This document shows positions 7,327-22,407 of a DNA stretch of 23,991 nt, piece after piece. The stretch covers positions 1 through 23,991 of the IMG/VR virus record IMGVR_UViG_3300031456_000019. One strand, given 5' to 3'. Within the stretch, counting starts at the first letter, position 1. The number at the start of each line of letters is the position of its first letter. This DNA comes from a virus. The notes beneath the pieces are model-generated. The model ran no database searches. It saw nothing but the letters and a program-made list of their open reading frames with translations, and had not been told where the DNA came from. Both the position numbers and the translations under genes were made by a program.

Positions 7327-7489
7327 GTTTGGCCTCATCGCGCATACGCTTGTGATACTCATTGATCTCGTCGTCATCGAACGTCATCGGCGTGGTGTTG
7401 AAGGGCGGCGGCAACTTGTTCAGATCGACCCAGCGCATGATGGTGCGCCGCGATCTGCGAAACAGGCGCGCGACGTCTTCCAGCGTCAT
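7247..7489 (-). CDS. Small HTH protein, MerR/excisionase-like (80 aa)
   Basis: Residues 1-31 (MTLEDVARLFRRSRRTIMRW...) read as a helix-turn-helix of the HTH_17/excisionase type: first helix VARLF, turn with R/S, recognition helix RRTIMRWV, then NKLPPPF. Such proteins act as excisionase-like recombination directionality factors or small regulators. An acidic helix and a basic disordered tail (RRRHRKTGAGDAA) follow. It lies directly downstream of the RecT-like gene (4-nt overlap). An Xis role with the serine recombinase on the other side is possible but unproven. Confidence 0.7.
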   Translation of the reverse strand: MTLEDVARLFRRSRRTIMRWVDLNKLPPPFNTTPMTFDDDEINEYHKRMRDEAKHGRKQPEQPEPDIRRRHRKTGAGDAA

Positions 7490-8346
7490 GCTCGCTCCTC
7501 CTGCTTCACCACGAAGCGTTGCTTCTCGATGGCGGCGTTGAGCATGCGGTGCATCTTCGGCTCGATCTCGGCCATGCGCGCTGTCGCATCGACGTTGTAC
7601 GCGGCCCAGCGGTCAAGCTCCGCAACTGTGCGCGCCGTGCGCGCGTTGGCAATGTAGGCCTGCGCCCATTGTCGCCAGTCCTCGTCACCGGCAGGCGCGA
7701 CCATGCGGTACGGCTCGATGTATTCGGCCTCGCTCGGCTGCTCGATGGTCGTGCCCTGCTGCAGGTCAGGCGGGTGCATCGGGGTCGGCTCGCGATGCGG
7801 TGTGACGTCGACCATGTCGCGCACCTCGTCATCGAACTGCATGCCGAGCATCACCTCGGACAGATGCAAACGGCCCCATGTGCGCGCGCCGGAATAGCCG
7901 AGTTGCTGGTCGGGCTGCTTGGTCCATTGCGCGTTCTGGGTCTTGACGTTGCCGAGGCGCACCTCGACCGAGCGTGACGTGGTCTCGCCGTGCAGGCGCG
8001 CGCTCACCGTGATGGTGCGCTCGTCGCCTTCGCCCGCGTAAACGTAGCTGAGCCGCTCGGCGAGCATGCCCGATGAGTTGAGCATCGCGGCGGCCATCTT
8101 GCCCGAAAAGCCGACCTTGCCCGAGATCACGTAGCACTCACCGATGGTGAGAAAAAAATCGAGGCGCAGGCGTTCGCAGGTGTTCATCACCAAAAAAAGA
8201 TCGGCCGGGCTTTTCTGGAATGCTGGCGGCACGAGGCGCGCGGTCGCAAGCTCGCGGCACAGCGCCATGCGATCCATCGCATTGACCGGCCATTGCATGG
8301 CGGTCGGCGGCGAGGCGACGACTGGCAGGTTGGAGGTGTCGTTCAC
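7486..8346 (-). CDS. recT: RecT-like single-strand annealing protein (286 aa)
   Basis: RecT-family proteins anneal complementary single strands next to a 5'-3' exonuclease during phage recombination and repair. The motifs seen match: MDRMALCRELATARLVPPAF, then CERLRLDFFLTIGECYVISG, GKMAAAMLNSSGMLAERLSY and the signature W-TKQPDQQLGYSGARTWGR at residues 141-159, followed by DDE at 172-174. The GTG at 8346 forms a GTGA overlap with the upstream exonuclease stop and has AAGGGAAG before it. The C-terminal 100 residues are lower-complexity. The exonuclease partner immediately upstream strongly supports the call. Confidence 0.85.
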   Translation of the reverse strand: MNDTSNLPVVASPPTAMQWPVNAMDRMALCRELATARLVPPAFQKSPADLFLVMNTCERLRLDFFLTIGECYVISGKVGFSGKMAAAMLNSSGMLAERLSYVYAGEGDERTITVSARLHGETTSRSVEVRLGNVKTQNAQWTKQPDQQLGYSGARTWGRLHLSEVMLGMQFDDEVRDMVDVTPHREPTPMHPPDLQQGTTIEQPSEAEYIEPYRMVAPAGDEDWRQWAQAYIANARTARTVAELDRWAAYNVDATARMAEIEPKMHRMLNAAIEKQRFVVKQEERA

Positions 8347-9146
8347 AGCACTTCCCTTTCGCGGATGGTGACGGCGCCGTTCTTGGCGCGGCGCACGGTG
8401 AGGTCGCCGTAGAGCACCGCGCCGACGTCGTCGGGCAGCATTTCCTTCACGGTCTTCTTCGCGGCATCGTGCTGGCGCGCGGCATCGCGTGTCGCGGACC
8501 ACTGGCGCATGGTCTCGATCATCGGCACACCCCAGTTCGGCAGCGGCACGGTCACGGCGAGGTCGACGGTGCGCCAAAGCTCGGGCGGCACCAGCACCGG
8601 GCGATGCACGGGCGGCGTCATGGTGTCGACGCAGCGCTGGAAGGCGGCGAGGCGGTCGAACACCTCGCGCTCGTAGGCCGCGTCGATGTTGATTTCAAAT
8701 TGCTCCAGCGTGAACCCGCGCAGCACGGCGAGTATGCCGCGCGCTGCATCGCGGCAGCGCATCTGCAGGAGAACCTGCGGCGTGTACTCGGTGATGATGT
8801 CGCGGCGGTCGCTGAAGGGGTTGCAGTGCTTGGCCTCGACCACGGCATCGTCGAAGGCGCGATAACCGTCCAGCGTTGCGCTGTAGGGCAGGGCGGGGTG
8901 CTCGATGAAGCGTTGCCGCTCGGTGATCTCGTGCTGGTCCACGCGCTCGATCCAGTCGAGAATGAACGGCTCGCACAGCTTGCCGAGTTGAACCGGCAGG
9001 TTGTTGCTGAAGTCCTGCGGCGCGATCTCGCCGAGGCGTTCCTGCCAGAGCGCGAACAGTTCGTCGGCGCTGCCGTGGACGATGATGCGCGCCTGCGATG
9101 CGGTGGTGTATCGCTCGCGCAAGGGCGAGAGGTGGCACTCGGTCAT
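8343..9146 (-). CDS. YqaJ/lambda-exonuclease-like recombination nuclease (267 aa)
   Basis: These enzymes resect double-stranded DNA 5'-3' to make the single strands that RecT anneals. The PD-(D/E)XK core is visible: E59 in LGKLCEPFI, D93 in SATLDGYRA, E104-x-K106 in VVEAKHC, and Tyr/Gln in YTPQVLLQM at about 121-128. The ATG at 9146 has GGAGG 8 nt upstream; the ORF to 9227 is an unsupported extension. It is the first gene of the leftward operon, directly downstream of the divergent control region. The helical C-terminus is followed by a basic end (LYGDLTVRRAKNGAVTIRER). Confidence 0.85.
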   Translation of the reverse strand: MTECHLSPLRERYTTASQARIIVHGSADELFALWQERLGEIAPQDFSNNLPVQLGKLCEPFILDWIERVDQHEITERQRFIEHPALPYSATLDGYRAFDDAVVEAKHCNPFSDRRDIITEYTPQVLLQMRCRDAARGILAVLRGFTLEQFEINIDAAYEREVFDRLAAFQRCVDTMTPPVHRPVLVPPELWRTVDLAVTVPLPNWGVPMIETMRQWSATRDAARQHDAAKKTVKEMLPDDVGAVLYGDLTVRRAKNGAVTIREREVL

Positions 9147-11017: not shown

Positions 11018-11331
11018 TCGCGGTCTATTCCTCGGAGCGATGTGTCGGGCGCTGCGATGCGAACTGCTACAACGCGGTGCATGCGCGATGCGCGTGCATT
11101 TGCGGTGGCGTGAACCACGGCCTCGGGGTCGATCTGGCGCGCGCGAATGTTCTCGATGGCGTCGGGCTGAAGGCGAGCGACCTCAAGCGCTTCGCGGCCG
11201 AGCATGATCATCAGTGTGAGCTTGTCGTGATCGACCGCATTGCGGTGCCCGATGCGCGGGCGGCCTACACGGCGGCGTACATGAAGCTTCATCAGCTTGA
11301 GCTTCCACTCGGGGAGCCGGTTCATGGCTGA
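11005..11331 (+). CDS. Cysteine-rich metal-binding protein (108 aa)
   Basis: Residues 13-33 hold six cysteines (C13, C17, C21, C29, C31, C33 in SERCVGRCDANCYNAVHARC followed by ACICGGVNHG), ending in a conserved-looking CGGxNHG. This is a compact metal site of unknown type. I recall similar small proteins in phages and actinomycetes but know no function. The C-terminal half is helical (ASDLKRFAAEHDHQCELVVI). It sits between the basic 68-aa protein and the VapE ATPase, so a role in replication is possible. Confidence 0.6.
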   Translation: MATLIAVYSSERCVGRCDANCYNAVHARCACICGGVNHGLGVDLARANVLDGVGLKASDLKRFAAEHDHQCELVVIDRIAVPDARAAYTAAYMKLHQLELPLGEPVHG

Positions 11332-12556
11332 TGACGACGACAATGTCGTGCTGTTCGACATGCGGCTGCGGGCGCAATGGCAATCGCGGTGTTTGTTGAC
11401 CGAGAAGGGCAAGCTGATCCCGAACCATGCGAACGTGATGCTGGCGCTGCGGCTCGATCCGGCATTGCGCGAGAATTACGGCTACGACGAGATGCTGCGC
11501 AGCGAGGTGATGCTGCGCGAGCTTGGCCATCTCGAGCCGGTGCATCGTTATGTGACCGACGCGGATGCGTGCGATCTGTTGGAGTGGCTGCATCAGAACG
11601 GGATGCCGGGCTTGCGGCTCGATGTGGTGCGCAACGCGCTGTCGACGCGCACGCGCGAGTGTCCCATTCATCCGGTGATCGATTATCTGCAGTCGCTGCA
11701 ATGGGACGGGGTGCCGCGTCTGGGGATTTGGTTGACGTCGTATCTGGGCGCGCCGCTCGGGAATTACAGCGAGCACATCGGGCGCATGTTTCTGATCTCG
11801 ATGATTGCGCGTGTGGTGCAGCCCGGCTGTCAGGCCGACCACATGATCGTGTTGGAGGGGCCGCAAGGCATTCTCAAGAGCAGTGCGTGCCGCGTGCTCG
11901 GCGGCGAATGGTTCTCGGACAATCTGCCGGACATCACCAGCGGCAAGGAGGTCTCGCAGCATTTGCGTGGCAAGTGGCTGGTGGAGGTGAGCGAGATGCA
12001 CGCGATGAACCGCGCCGAGGCGACCTTGCTCAAGAGCTTCATCTCGCGCGGCGTGGAAATCTTCCGGCCTTCGTACGGTCGGATGGAGGTGCACGAGCCG
12101 AGGCAATGCGTGTTCGTCGGCACGACCAATCAGGATCAATACCTCAAGGACCCGACAGGCGGTCGCCGTTTCTGGCCGGTGAAGACCGGGATCACCGGGC
12201 GCATCGAGCTTGGCTTGCTGGCCGAGCAGCGCGACCAGTTGTTCGCCGAGGCGCTGGCGGCGTTTCAGGAGGGCGGCACGTGGTGGCCTGATCCCGCGTT
12301 CGAAGCTGAGATCATCAAGCCGCAGCAGGCCGAGCGTTACACGGGCGACATCTGGGAAGACCGCATCGACCAGTTTCTCATCGAGCGCACCCGGGTCTCC
12401 ACGCGCGAGATCGCCCGCGAGGCCCTCGGCTTTGTCGACAAGGAGTTGCGGCAGGAGCACAGCCTGCGCATCGCTTCCATCCTGCGCGATCTGGGCTGGG
12501 AGCCGAAACGCTCGGGCAGGACACGGTGGTGGTGCCGTAATGGATTGATCTCCTGA
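11324..12556 (+). CDS. VapE-type (SF3-like) replicative ATPase/primase-associated helicase (410 aa)
   Basis: Virulence-associated protein E family members are P-loop ATPases that act with primases in phage and island replication. Motifs: Walker A GPQGILKSS at 179-187, Walker B region WLVEVSEM at 218-225, sensor-like FVGTTN at 264-269 and GGRRFWPV at 279-286. A helical N-terminus (DLLEWLHQNGMPGLRLDVVR) and a C-terminal winged-helix-like part (STREIAREALGFVDKE, then RIASILRDLGWEPKR) flank the core. The ATG at 11324 has GGAG about 8 nt upstream and overlaps the previous gene by 8 nt. The origin-like region lies immediately downstream. Confidence 0.85.
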   Translation: MADDDDNVVLFDMRLRAQWQSRCLLTEKGKLIPNHANVMLALRLDPALRENYGYDEMLRSEVMLRELGHLEPVHRYVTDADACDLLEWLHQNGMPGLRLDVVRNALSTRTRECPIHPVIDYLQSLQWDGVPRLGIWLTSYLGAPLGNYSEHIGRMFLISMIARVVQPGCQADHMIVLEGPQGILKSSACRVLGGEWFSDNLPDITSGKEVSQHLRGKWLVEVSEMHAMNRAEATLLKSFISRGVEIFRPSYGRMEVHEPRQCVFVGTTNQDQYLKDPTGGRRFWPVKTGITGRIELGLLAEQRDQLFAEALAAFQEGGTWWPDPAFEAEIIKPQQAERYTGDIWEDRIDQFLIERTRVSTREIAREALGFVDKELRQEHSLRIASILRDLGWEPKRSGRTRWWCRNGLIS

Positions 12557-12592
12557 GACCGTCACCAACCGTCACACCGTCACAAGTGTGGT

Positions 12593-12598
12593 TATAAT
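12593..12598 (+). promoter_or_regulatory. Perfect TATAAT -10 hexamer between iterons
   Basis: TATAAT sits 9 nt after the third CCGTCAC and 21 nt before the fourth. The expected -35 position (about 12570-12575) falls in the iterons and does not resemble TTGACA. Activity would therefore be weak alone or activator-dependent, and a protein on the iterons would compete with RNA polymerase. It would read towards the packaging genes. Confidence 0.4.
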
Positions 12599-12629
12599 GT
12601 CAGAGATTAAGCGTCATGACCGTCACATT

Positions 12630-12734
12630 GGTGACGGTGTGACGGTTCGTGTCGATCTTCCCTTATATAGGTATACAAAGACCCTGTTTGTAACGCTATA
12701 TAAGGAAGATCGTCACTAGACCGTCACCGTCACC
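12630..12734. repeat. Imperfect palindrome of about 105 bp with AT-rich arms
   Basis: The inner arms 12654-12679 and 12687-12711 pair with one bulged C and a few mismatches: GATCTTCCCTTATATAG on the left, CTATATAAGGAAGATC on the right, around the loop GACCCTG. The symmetry continues outward: GGTGACGGTGTGACGG at 12630-12645 mirrors CCGTCACCGTCACC at 12721-12734 with a 2-nt gap. The core is strikingly AT-rich for this GC-rich window. Confidence 0.8.
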
Positions 12735-12819
12735 ACGCGCAGGGATTAAGCTTGACGCGATGGAGAACGGCGCGCAGTTTTCGCGGCTTCAAAGGTCGTG
12801 GTCGGCACCTCGGACCTAA

Positions 12820-13125
12820 ATGGCGCGAGCACCAACCGATTTGAGATCGCTGGCGCGTGCACACACCGAGATGGGGTTGCGCGTGCTTTGCGGCATTGCG
12901 CAGAACAGCGAGAGCGACAACGCACGCGTGGCTGCTGTCGGTCTGATCTGGGATCGCGGCTGGGGCAAAGCTCCGCAAGCGCATACTGGCGCAGACGGCG
13001 AAGGCGATATTCGCGTCACCATTCGGCACATCATCGAAGGCACTGCAGCGCCGCAAGTTCTTGATGCGAGCAACGACGCCAAGGTGCTGACCTTGGTGCC
13101 CAAGAAAACTGAGGGCGAGCCATGA
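12820..13125 (+). CDS. Putative small terminase subunit-like protein (101 aa)
   Basis: Residues about 8-50 (LRSLARAHTEMGLRVLCGIA, then DNARVAAVGLIWDRGWGKAP) match a short helical module often found just upstream of TerL in alphaproteobacterial phages ('LRxLARxHTxxAxxxL...ARVxAAxxLLDRGWGKxPQ'). Small terminase subunits recognise the packaging site and regulate TerL. The C-terminus (GDIRVTIRHIIEGTAAPQVL) is beta-like. The ribosome binding site is poor. TerL is separated by the serine recombinase gene, which is unusual, so the TerS role is inferred. Confidence 0.55.
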   Translation: MARAPTDLRSLARAHTEMGLRVLCGIAQNSESDNARVAAVGLIWDRGWGKAPQAHTGADGEGDIRVTIRHIIEGTAAPQVLDASNDAKVLTLVPKKTEGEP

Positions 13126-13987: not shown

Positions 13988-15352
13988 ATGGACATCACGC
14001 TTCCCCACAATGGCTGGCTCCCGCGCGCGCATCAGATGGCGCTGTGGAGCTATCTCGCCAACGGCGGCAAGCGTGCGATGGCGGTATGGCATCGGCGTGC
14101 GGGCAAGGACGAGATTTGTTTGCATCACGCCTCGTGCGCGGCGATGCAGCGTGCGGGCAACTACTGGCACTGCCTTCCAGAATTCTTGCAAGGTCGCAAA
14201 GCCATCTGGACCGCGATCAACGCGCACACCGGCAAGCGCCGCATCGATGAAGCCTTCCCGCCGATGCTGCGTGAGACCACCAACGACAACGAGATGTTCA
14301 TCCGCTTTCTGAACGGCTCGACGTGGCAAATCATCGGTAGCGACCGCTACGACGCCACCGTCGGCGCAGGTGTCGCGGGCATCACCTACTCAGAATGGGC
14401 GCTCGCGAACCCGTCAGCGTGGGCCTACCACCGCCCGATGCTGGAGGAAAATAACGGCTGGGCCGCCTTCATCACCACGCCGCGCGGCAGAAACCACGCC
14501 CTCTCGATGTTCAACCACGCGCAAGCAACATCGGGCTGGTTCTCCGAACGCCTGACTGCGCTCGACACGCATGCGCTCTCGCAGGAGCGGCTGGAGGAGG
14601 CGCTCGCCGAGTATCAGGCCCTTTACGGCATGGACGTCGGGCGCGCGCAATTCCAGCAGGAATACATGTGCGACTGGAACGCCGCTATTCTCGGGGCATT
14701 TTACGCCTACGAGATGGCGCTGGTGCGCGCTGAAAACCGCATTATCGACATCGACGCGCAACCCGGTGTTCCGGTGCATCGCGCGTGGGATTTGGGCATG
14801 ACCGACGACACGAGTATCTGGTTTTACCAGATGGTCGGCTCGCAAATCTTTATTCTCGACCATTACGCCACCTCGGGCGTCGGCCTCGAACATTATCGCG
14901 ACATCATCGAGATGCGCTACCGCGACCGGGGCTGGACCCACGGCGAGGATCACGTGCCGCACGACGCGAAGGTGAAGGAGATGGGCACCGGCCGCACCCG
15001 CGTCGAGACCATGCGCCTGCTCGGTCTTAAGCCGATCTTGGTCCCGAACGCATCCATCGAGGACGGGCGCAACGCGGTGCGGCGCACGCTGCCGCTGTGC
15101 GTCTTCCATCCGCGCACCGAGGTCGGCGGCATCGATGCGCTGGAGCAGTACCGGCGCGAATGGGACGACGAGAAGAAGGCGTTCCGCGCCAACGCGGTCC
15201 ACGACTGGACCTCGCACCCGGCCGACAGCTTTCGCTACCTCGCGCTCGCATGGCGCGCGCCGCCGCCGCGCGTCGTGACACCGCCGCCGCTGCTTCCATC
15301 CGGCTGGATCATTCCGCCGCCACCCGAACCACGCGCGGGGATCATGCTGTGA
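13988..15352 (+). CDS. terL: Terminase large subunit, ATPase and nuclease (454 aa)
   Basis: TerL drives DNA into the prohead and cuts it. The ATPase has a Walker A-like HRRAGKD at 35-41 (the RxAGKD variant), Walker B-like GITYSEWA at 131-138 with E136, and a motif III ITTPRGRN at 162-169. The RNase H-like nuclease has AWDLGMTDDTS (D268), VPHDAK (D326) and HDWTSHPADSFRY (D406, D413) as candidate metal ligands. The C-terminus ends in a proline-rich tail. The ATG at 13988 is preceded by GGTGAG. The size and order of motifs fit podovirus/siphovirus-type terminases. Confidence 0.9.
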   Translation: MDITLPHNGWLPRAHQMALWSYLANGGKRAMAVWHRRAGKDEICLHHASCAAMQRAGNYWHCLPEFLQGRKAIWTAINAHTGKRRIDEAFPPMLRETTNDNEMFIRFLNGSTWQIIGSDRYDATVGAGVAGITYSEWALANPSAWAYHRPMLEENNGWAAFITTPRGRNHALSMFNHAQATSGWFSERLTALDTHALSQERLEEALAEYQALYGMDVGRAQFQQEYMCDWNAAILGAFYAYEMALVRAENRIIDIDAQPGVPVHRAWDLGMTDDTSIWFYQMVGSQIFILDHYATSGVGLEHYRDIIEMRYRDRGWTHGEDHVPHDAKVKEMGTGRTRVETMRLLGLKPILVPNASIEDGRNAVRRTLPLCVFHPRTEVGGIDALEQYRREWDDEKKAFRANAVHDWTSHPADSFRYLALAWRAPPPRVVTPPPLLPSGWIIPPPPEPRAGIML

Positions 15353-21063: not shown

Positions 21064-22407
21064 ATGTCCGACGTCAGCAACGCACCGAACGCCAACCCGC
21101 CGCAGCAGCAGCAGAACGCGCCTGCGAACGAGGTGGCCATCGACACGAACCCGGTCTCCGCGCCGCAGCCGGTCGGCTCGCAGGCCCCCGACAAGCCGAG
21201 CAGCGAACAGCCGCGCGCGGAAAGCCGCCGCGAGGCGATCCAGAAGGCGTTCGCCAAGGCGCGCGAGACCAACCCACCGAAGGCCGCCGACGCCAAGATG
21301 GGTCACAACCAGCCGCCCGAGGAGACCAAGCGCGAGGTGCCGCAGCGGCGCGAGACGCGCGAGCGCGAGAAGCTTGAGCCGATTGATTTGCGCAAGCGCC
21401 CGGCCGATCAGCCGCGTGCCGAGCAGCCGCGCGAGCAGGGCCGCTTTGCCCCAGCCAAGGCCGCCGATGAGCCGCAGCGCCAACAGGCTGCACAGCAGCA
21501 GGGCGGCGCGCAGGGCGCGCAAACCGCTGCGCAAACGCAGGCAGCAGGCGCGCAAACGGCGCCGTTGCCCGACACGGCACCCTACGCCAAAGCGCCACCG
21601 CGCATGACCGACCGCGCCAAATCCGAATGGGGCGCGACCCCGGAGAGCGTGCGCGCCGACGTCCACCGCATGCATGTCGAATTCGACGGCGCCTACAAGC
21701 GCTACAAGGGCGATCACGAGACGATGAAGACGCTGCGGCCGTTCGAGGCCATGGCGAGGGAGCACGGCACGACACTGCAGCGCGCGCTCAACAATTACGT
21801 CGGCATGGAGCAGAAACTGCGCACCGACGTGGTCGGCGGGCTCGACATCATCGTCAACAATCTGAACCTGCAGACCCCTGATGGTCAGCGGCTCACGCTG
21901 CGCGATGTCGCGCACCACATCCTCAATCAGTCGCCCGAGCAGCATAAGCTCCGGCAGAACGAGAACGCACAGAGCGCGGCAAGCCAGCAGATCGGGCAAT
22001 TGCATCAGATGGTGAGCACGCTTGCGTCGGGAATTAAGGAGATGCAGTATGAGCGGCAGTTCGCCAACACGCGAACGGCGCTCGACCGCTACGCGGAGGA
22101 CCCGAAGCATCCCCGCTTTGATGAGCTTGCCGACCTGATCGAGCAAGAGGTCAAGCTGGGCTTCGACATCGACACCGCGTACCAGCGCGCCGAACTGCTT
22201 CGGCCCGGCCCCGCTCGGGCGGCTCAAACCCGCACCAACGGCACCGGTAACGGCACAGCGGCTCAGACCCGCAACCCCGACCGCTCCATCCACGGCGCGC
22301 CAGACGTAGCCTCCTCAAACGGGGCGTCCCGGGCCAAGGGCGGCAAACCGGTCGGTCGACGCGAAGCCATCGCCAACGCGATGCGACGAGTAAGCGGCAC
22401 GATCTAA
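21064..22407 (+). CDS. Scaffolding-like protein (447 aa)
   Basis: It is the gene before the capsid gene. About 180 N-terminal residues are disordered and rich in Gln/Ala/Pro/Arg (NPPQQQQNAPANEVAIDTNP and a long EQPREQGRFAPAKAADEPQR stretch). A helical core spans about 185-370 (MTDRAKSEWGATPESVRADV, then HRMHVEFDGAYKRYKGDHET, RPFEAMAREHGTTLQRALNN and DELADLIEQEVKLGFDIDTA). The C-terminus is basic (VGRREAIANAMRRVSGT). This architecture is typical of phage scaffolds, which template prohead assembly and then leave. The role is inferred from architecture and synteny, not sequence identity. Confidence 0.65.
   Translation: MSDVSNAPNANPPQQQQNAPANEVAIDTNPVSAPQPVGSQAPDKPSSEQPRAESRREAIQKAFAKARETNPPKAADAKMGHNQPPEETKREVPQRRETREREKLEPIDLRKRPADQPRAEQPREQGRFAPAKAADEPQRQQAAQQQGGAQGAQTAAQTQAAGAQTAPLPDTAPYAKAPPRMTDRAKSEWGATPESVRADVHRMHVEFDGAYKRYKGDHETMKTLRPFEAMAREHGTTLQRALNNYVGMEQKLRTDVVGGLDIIVNNLNLQTPDGQRLTLRDVAHHILNQSPEQHKLRQNENAQSAASQQIGQLHQMVSTLASGIKEMQYERQFANTRTALDRYAEDPKHPRFDELADLIEQEVKLGFDIDTAYQRAELLRPGPARAAQTRTNGTGNGTAAQTRNPDRSIHGAPDVASSNGASRAKGGKPVGRREAIANAMRRVSGTI

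Follow-up and report, generated by a model that had tools for sequence, protein, structure and literature searches.

Replication origins made of short repeats (iterons) directly 3′ of the gene for a Rep helicase have been described in Staphylococcus aureus pathogenicity islands (SaPIs), E. coli phage-inducible chromosomal islands (PICIs) and the staphylococcal cassette chromosome SCCmec (PMC7581432, PMC6092414). In SaPIs, the C-terminal domain of Rep recognizes iterons directly downstream of its gene (PMC7581432). In the origins of E. coli PICIs, an AT-rich region always lies between two iteron sets, and the pri-rep-ori unit drives plasmid replication (PMC6092414). VapE has been labelled 'virulence-associated' since it was first named, and streptococcal work described its role as exerted through an unknown mechanism (PMC6813308). 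Here we describe an array of CCGTCAC iterons directly after a VapE-type gene in a viral contig of 23,991 bases (IMG/VR record IMGVR_UViG_3300031456_000019, positions 1 to 23,991; this whole stretch is hereafter the window), which by gene content is a fragment of a tailed phage. We conclude that positions 12559–12733 are very probably a phage replication origin, with VapE as its initiator.

An iteron array at the 3′ end of a VapE gene

The proposed origin and its initiator gene comprise the following features.

11297–12556, + strand: VapE-family AAA+ ATPase/helicase, proposed origin-binding initiator (longest frame; PF05272, E 3e-74; phrog_256 DNA helicase, 6e-94)
12332–12553, + strand: predicted VapE C-terminal winged-helix domain, residues about 346–419, proposed iteron reader (AlphaFold2 models)
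12559–12583, + strand: outer left CCGTCAC iterons, starting at 12559, 12569 and 12577 (exact motif matches)
12611–12626, + strand: degenerate copy GCGTCAT (12611–12617) and exact CCGTCAC (12620–12626; motif matches)
12631–12637 and 12639–12645, − strand: inner left iterons, exact copies with TGACGG toward the AT-rich gap (motif matches)
12646–12709, no strand: AT-rich gap with a TATATA-bearing dyad (arms 12661–12679 and 12687–12705), proposed melting site (stability, dyad)
12710–12733, + strand: right iterons, with degenerate TCGTCAC (12710–12716) and exact CCGTCAC (12721–12727 and 12727–12733; motif matches)

The array begins 3 bp past the VapE stop codon. Eight exact CCGTCAC copies in both orientations fall within about 175 bp, and the two degenerate copies bring the block to ten sites with a CGTCA core. 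In the whole window the motif occurs 15 times against 4.85 expected, a count reached by none of 100 shuffles, and 150 Markov-simulated windows held at most 3 copies within 180 bp (at most 5 of any 7-mer). GATTAAGC is found at 12605–12612, where it overlaps a degenerate iteron, and again at 12744–12751. An imperfect dyad has arms at 12649–12661/12704–12716 and 12661–12679/12687–12705; the segment 12629–12735 matches its own reverse complement at 79%. Judged by nearest-neighbour energies, no stretch of 40, 60 or 80 bp in the 24-kb record is less stable than those lying in or at the AT-rich gap. A preliminary description of this DNA had reported the eight motifs against about five expected window-wide, a dyad of about 105 bp with TATATA-rich arms, two GATTAAGC copies and a position immediately after a VapE-type ATPase, and on each of these points our analysis agrees with it.

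No terminator or RNA element was found at the array. After CCGTCAC, the 7-mer most densely clustered in the window is CTCGCGC, near 21260, which was dismissed as coding sequence rich in Arg and Glu codons. AT skew turns from negative to positive across the array (at about 12500 in the window) within genes on the same strand, and this turn is absent on average in relatives.

Arrays recur after VapE genes across the family

To assess the conservation of this arrangement, whose absence from relatives sharing VapE the preliminary description had named as a point against its proposal, we drew VapE loci from GTDB genomes and IMG/VR and analysed 137 after removal of redundancy; 133 of these had a full 400-bp tile after the gene. 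A 7-mer present at least four times was found in 62% of the 133 tiles directly after the VapE stop codon. The corresponding figures were 2–11% for ten other tiles and 1.5% for shuffles; for at least six copies, the three values were 40%, 0–2% and 0. The 77 arrays had a median start of +4 bp, span of 175 bp and largest gap of 81 bp. The gap was richer in AT than the gene in 72 of the 77 (AT 0.51 in the gap versus 0.37 in the gene), and in 54 of 89 loci its stability ranked in the lowest 2% for the surrounding 6 kb. The inner iterons, those bordering the gap, pointed inward in 34 of 41 arrays with a TGACG core. Across the family, the layout is constant (two iteron sets, an AT-rich gap of about 80 bp and inward inner copies), with about 34 kinds of iteron; VapE relatives in IMG/VR share it with CCGTCACA, GCGTCACC, AGCGTCAT, GGTGACAG, TGACGCAT, GGTTACA and others. 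A blastn search of the window array against named phages gave no match, as expected because iterons differ between phages.

Among 13 named phages, the array lay directly after VapE in six, within 800 bp past a small open reading frame in three and 1.6 kb away in one, and three had none. Copy numbers included ten in Corynebacterium phage CL31, nine in Paenibacillus phage Lena, eight in Marinobacter phage PS3 and six in Rhodobacter phage RcGingersnap. Displaced arrays, with genes inserted after VapE, were seen in Pseudomonas phage Haddon, in U5 and in loci L018 and L019; in the last two, the array (CGTCATG) lies 1.6–2.6 kb beyond VapE with its layout unchanged. The inserts in this pair (L018 1971–4700, L019 2686–4440) have in common a minus-strand gene of about 262–278 amino acids.

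Several further observations concern related arrays. In the Streptococcus satellite phage Javan610 (L275), AACTACA occurs seven times directly after a VapE-like gene, which suggests an adjoining origin for the vapE genes of streptococcal satellites too, genes that have been studied for virulence. Gap sequences from 96 arrays (12661–12705 in the window) were enriched in ATAGGAA, TATGGAAA and CTCTATA, with ATAGGAA in 11 gaps against 0.9 expected; these words may reflect a shared melting element or, in part, common descent. Four viral contigs with CCGTCAC arrays but no VapE match (L093, L095, L099 and L101) had high-GC frames among which no clear adjoining initiator was found. Other initiator types were also followed by short-repeat arrays: L054 1257–3290 (Prim-Pol/AAA_25), L085 1066–3738 (D5_N) and L105 2650–4527, the last with CCGTCAC itself as the repeat though its helicase is not VapE. 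L054 and L085, relatives by terminase, each carry another initiator with its own 3′ array, a pattern that would fit the exchange of initiator and origin together, as a single cassette.

VapE resembles a solved initiator helicase

By sequence, VapE matched PDB entry 7pds (E 4e-45), titled 'The structure of PriRep1 with dsDNA', whose protein was deposited as 'Similar to D. nodosus vapE' and is the one strong VapE relative with a solved structure. The AlphaFold2 model of VapE (residues 23–419) matched the 7pds fold over 385 residues (E 1e-27, Z 29, 27% identity). PriRep1, a staphylococcal self-loading helicase, is the initiator of SaPI1. Relatives suggest that the true start of VapE is the ATG at 11324, and NCBIfam holds no family for the protein. 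A winged helix is predicted for its last 75 residues, with helices at 352–361, 369–376 and 386–398 and strands at 401–406 and 409–414. This C-terminal model aligned with 7pds 335–471 over 78 residues (Z 6.3, weak taken alone); searched by itself with Foldseek, it gave no match at E 0.001 or better, and the top-ranking entries were mostly winged helices.

The best reading of this homology is that VapE is itself the probable initiator, overlooked in the preliminary description, which saw none and suggested a VapE-dependent, undescribed system. The absence of an initiator and an undescribed system are not supported: VapE is related to a solved initiator helicase, and Rep–iteron origins 3′ of rep, of the SaPI/PICI type, are already known. 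Its proposal of an iteron origin at the array is well supported by the VapE-linked arrays found family-wide. An iteron plasmid with a DnaA-assisted Rep (Rep_3/RepA type) was considered and rejected, as no DnaA box (TTWTNCACA) occurs in the window and no plasmid Rep-family match was found among the proteins scanned near the array.

Iteron sequence co-varies with the VapE C-terminus

We compared iteron similarity with the identity of each VapE region. Across 97 loci, the partial Mantel correlation was 0.216 for the C-terminus with the ATPase allowed for (p 0.001), 0.129 for the ATPase with the C-terminus allowed for, and 0.002 for the N-terminus. For 44 closest-relative pairs that shared no locus, iterons followed the C-terminus with the ATPase held (rho 0.50, p 0.0006) and not the ATPase with the C-terminus held (rho 0.015, p 0.92). 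The Methylobacterium loci L132 and L122 illustrate the pattern: their ATPases are 96% identical and their C-termini 53%, and all iterons are exchanged (CCGGACGAC versus CACGGCGCAC) around a spacer that can still be aligned. A column scan of VapE placed R410, Q386, R405 and K404, which fall in the recognition helix and wing, among the positions most strongly linked to the iteron; the scan counts non-independent pairs, and its t-values therefore serve as a ranking only.

This co-variation is indirect support for the proposed specific binding of iterons by VapE. A broader idea, which we rate as somewhat short of probable, is a family-wide, fast-diversifying lock and key, in which the winged helix of each VapE and the whole iteron set of its adjacent origin change together while the ATPase stays almost unchanged. 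Such a system might provide dozens of orthogonal replicons and a readable protein–DNA code (the Q386 region of the recognition helix and the wing K404–R410), and might let phages avoid cross-firing with the origins of other phages and satellites.

A proposed mechanism and competing explanations

In the mechanism that we propose, the C-terminal winged helix of VapE would read the CCGTCAC iterons on either side of the AT-rich gap, and the two inward-pointing site sets would load VapE rings face to face. The gap would then melt, and VapE would unwind the DNA as the replicative helicase. Primase and polymerase would come from the host, a step we infer because no primase was recognized in the window. 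The lack of a recognized primase counts against our interpretation, as do several other results. GC skew, by which the preliminary description had hoped to map the replication start, showed nothing origin-like, either in the window or in the average of relatives. At 38% of VapE loci, the first 400 bp held no array of at least four copies; inserted genes account for some of these cases, and not for others such as FoX5, P2559Y and BcepNY3. The co-variation evidence that the iteron tracks the C-terminal domain is good but not uniform, because the contrast fades when loci are paired at random rather than with their closest relative (mean partial rho 0.19 for the C-terminus versus 0.14 for the ATPase).

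The gene series of the contig runs from RecE/RecT-like genes on the minus strand through a helix-turn-helix (HTH) protein, a nuclease-like protein, VapE, the array and a small protein to the terminase large subunit, portal and major head protein. The recombination pair (7489–9146, − strand) consists of a RecT-like annealing protein (phrog_561) adjoining a RecE/YqaJ-like exonuclease (phrog_434). Three further features are relevant.

12571–12598, + strand: sigma70-like promoter match, GTCACA-16-TATAAT, overlapping the left iterons (consensus match only; 1 found versus 0.2 expected in shuffles)
12820–13125, + strand: small protein, possible terminase small subunit (TerS), outside the proposed origin (phrog_15261, unknown function; homologues precede the terminase in TerL relatives)
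13988–15352, + strand: terminase large subunit (TerL), anchor for the packaging-site test (phrog_2, E 1e-18; phrog_2472, 3e-35)

The position of the array just before the terminase genes would suit a pac or cos packaging site recognized by terminase, as would its retention on the terminase side of the inserted genes in L018 and L019 rather than beside VapE. We nevertheless regard a packaging site as very unlikely, because the array goes with VapE and not with terminase. Among TerL relatives without VapE (n = 71), arrays of at least five copies were absent from the region 1.6 kb to 0.4 kb ahead of TerL and occurred in just 2 of 64 in the last 400 bp. Conversely, no homologue of this putative small subunit or of TerL is present in 126 of the 137 VapE loci, most of which still have an array, and the iteron follows the VapE C-terminus. 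A pac or cos site would be kept beside the terminase whatever the replication gene, and the array was not.

A regulatory role without origin function is also unlikely, if a little less so: the array could be an operator cluster for a phage repressor or activator, or an autoregulatory VapE site controlling the downstream late genes. The overlapping promoter-like match and the HTH proteins encoded nearby would fit this, but arrays occur at the VapE 3′ end in unrelated gene contexts with a melting-prone, AT-rich gap at the centre, and in layout they match PICI origins that have been tested (PMC6092414). An additional, regulatory role is possible, as VapE binding at the promoter-like match might affect downstream genes. 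Least probable of the three is a partition or incompatibility site, that is, centromere-like repeats of a plasmid-like prophage. Fold neighbours of the VapE C-terminal model include centromere-binding proteins, but also many regulators; no ParA/ParB-type gene was found beside the array among the proteins scanned, and the repeats follow a helicase rather than a partition ATPase.

The link between VapE and an adjoining origin-like array in most loci gives this protein a testable function, that of a replication initiator, in phages and satellites. The concerted change of iterons and C-terminus makes a specificity code for an origin-binding helicase testable by domain swaps, and the VapE family supplies many candidate orthogonal replicons.

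Comparison with known systems

Our search of the open-access literature found nothing on VapE together with an iteron. By architecture and initiator homology, we assign the window origin to the SaPI/PICI Rep–iteron type, because every architectural feature that sequence can test fits: an AAA+ initiator helicase of the kind that loads itself, PriRep1/VapE or D5 in type (PF05272, 7pds), a C-terminal DNA-reading winged helix (by prediction only), iterons directly 3′ of rep (3 bp after the stop; family median +4 bp) and two iteron sets around an AT-rich region. Its source, however, is a phage and not a PICI, because the contig encodes its own terminase, portal and major head protein, whereas PICIs have no structural head genes of their own.

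Among described systems, the PLE RepA and other RepA_N iteron origins are similar in pairing a phage-satellite initiator with iterons, but RepA_N proteins have no helicase domain and the iteron is of another type (PMC7145576). In SCCmec, the C-terminal domain of the Cch2 helicase binds short direct repeats downstream of its gene, at a putative origin (PMC7581432); Cch2 differs in being a D5/Primase_Cterm-type helicase with an AAGTG iteron and only three repeats. The pri-rep-ori unit of the E. coli PICI EcCICFT073, shown to drive plasmid replication, shares the two iteron sets around an AT-rich region, although PICIs are satellites without head genes and their Pri-Rep probably falls outside the VapE clade of the window. 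The SaPI origin with its Rep (PriRep1, 7pds) differs from the window locus in host group and iteron sequence, and the window phage has terminase, portal and capsid genes of its own and a helicase without a recognized primase partner; the two are alike in their VapE-type helicase, their C-terminal origin-reading domain, here a predicted one, and their iterons directly 3′ of the gene (PMC7581432).
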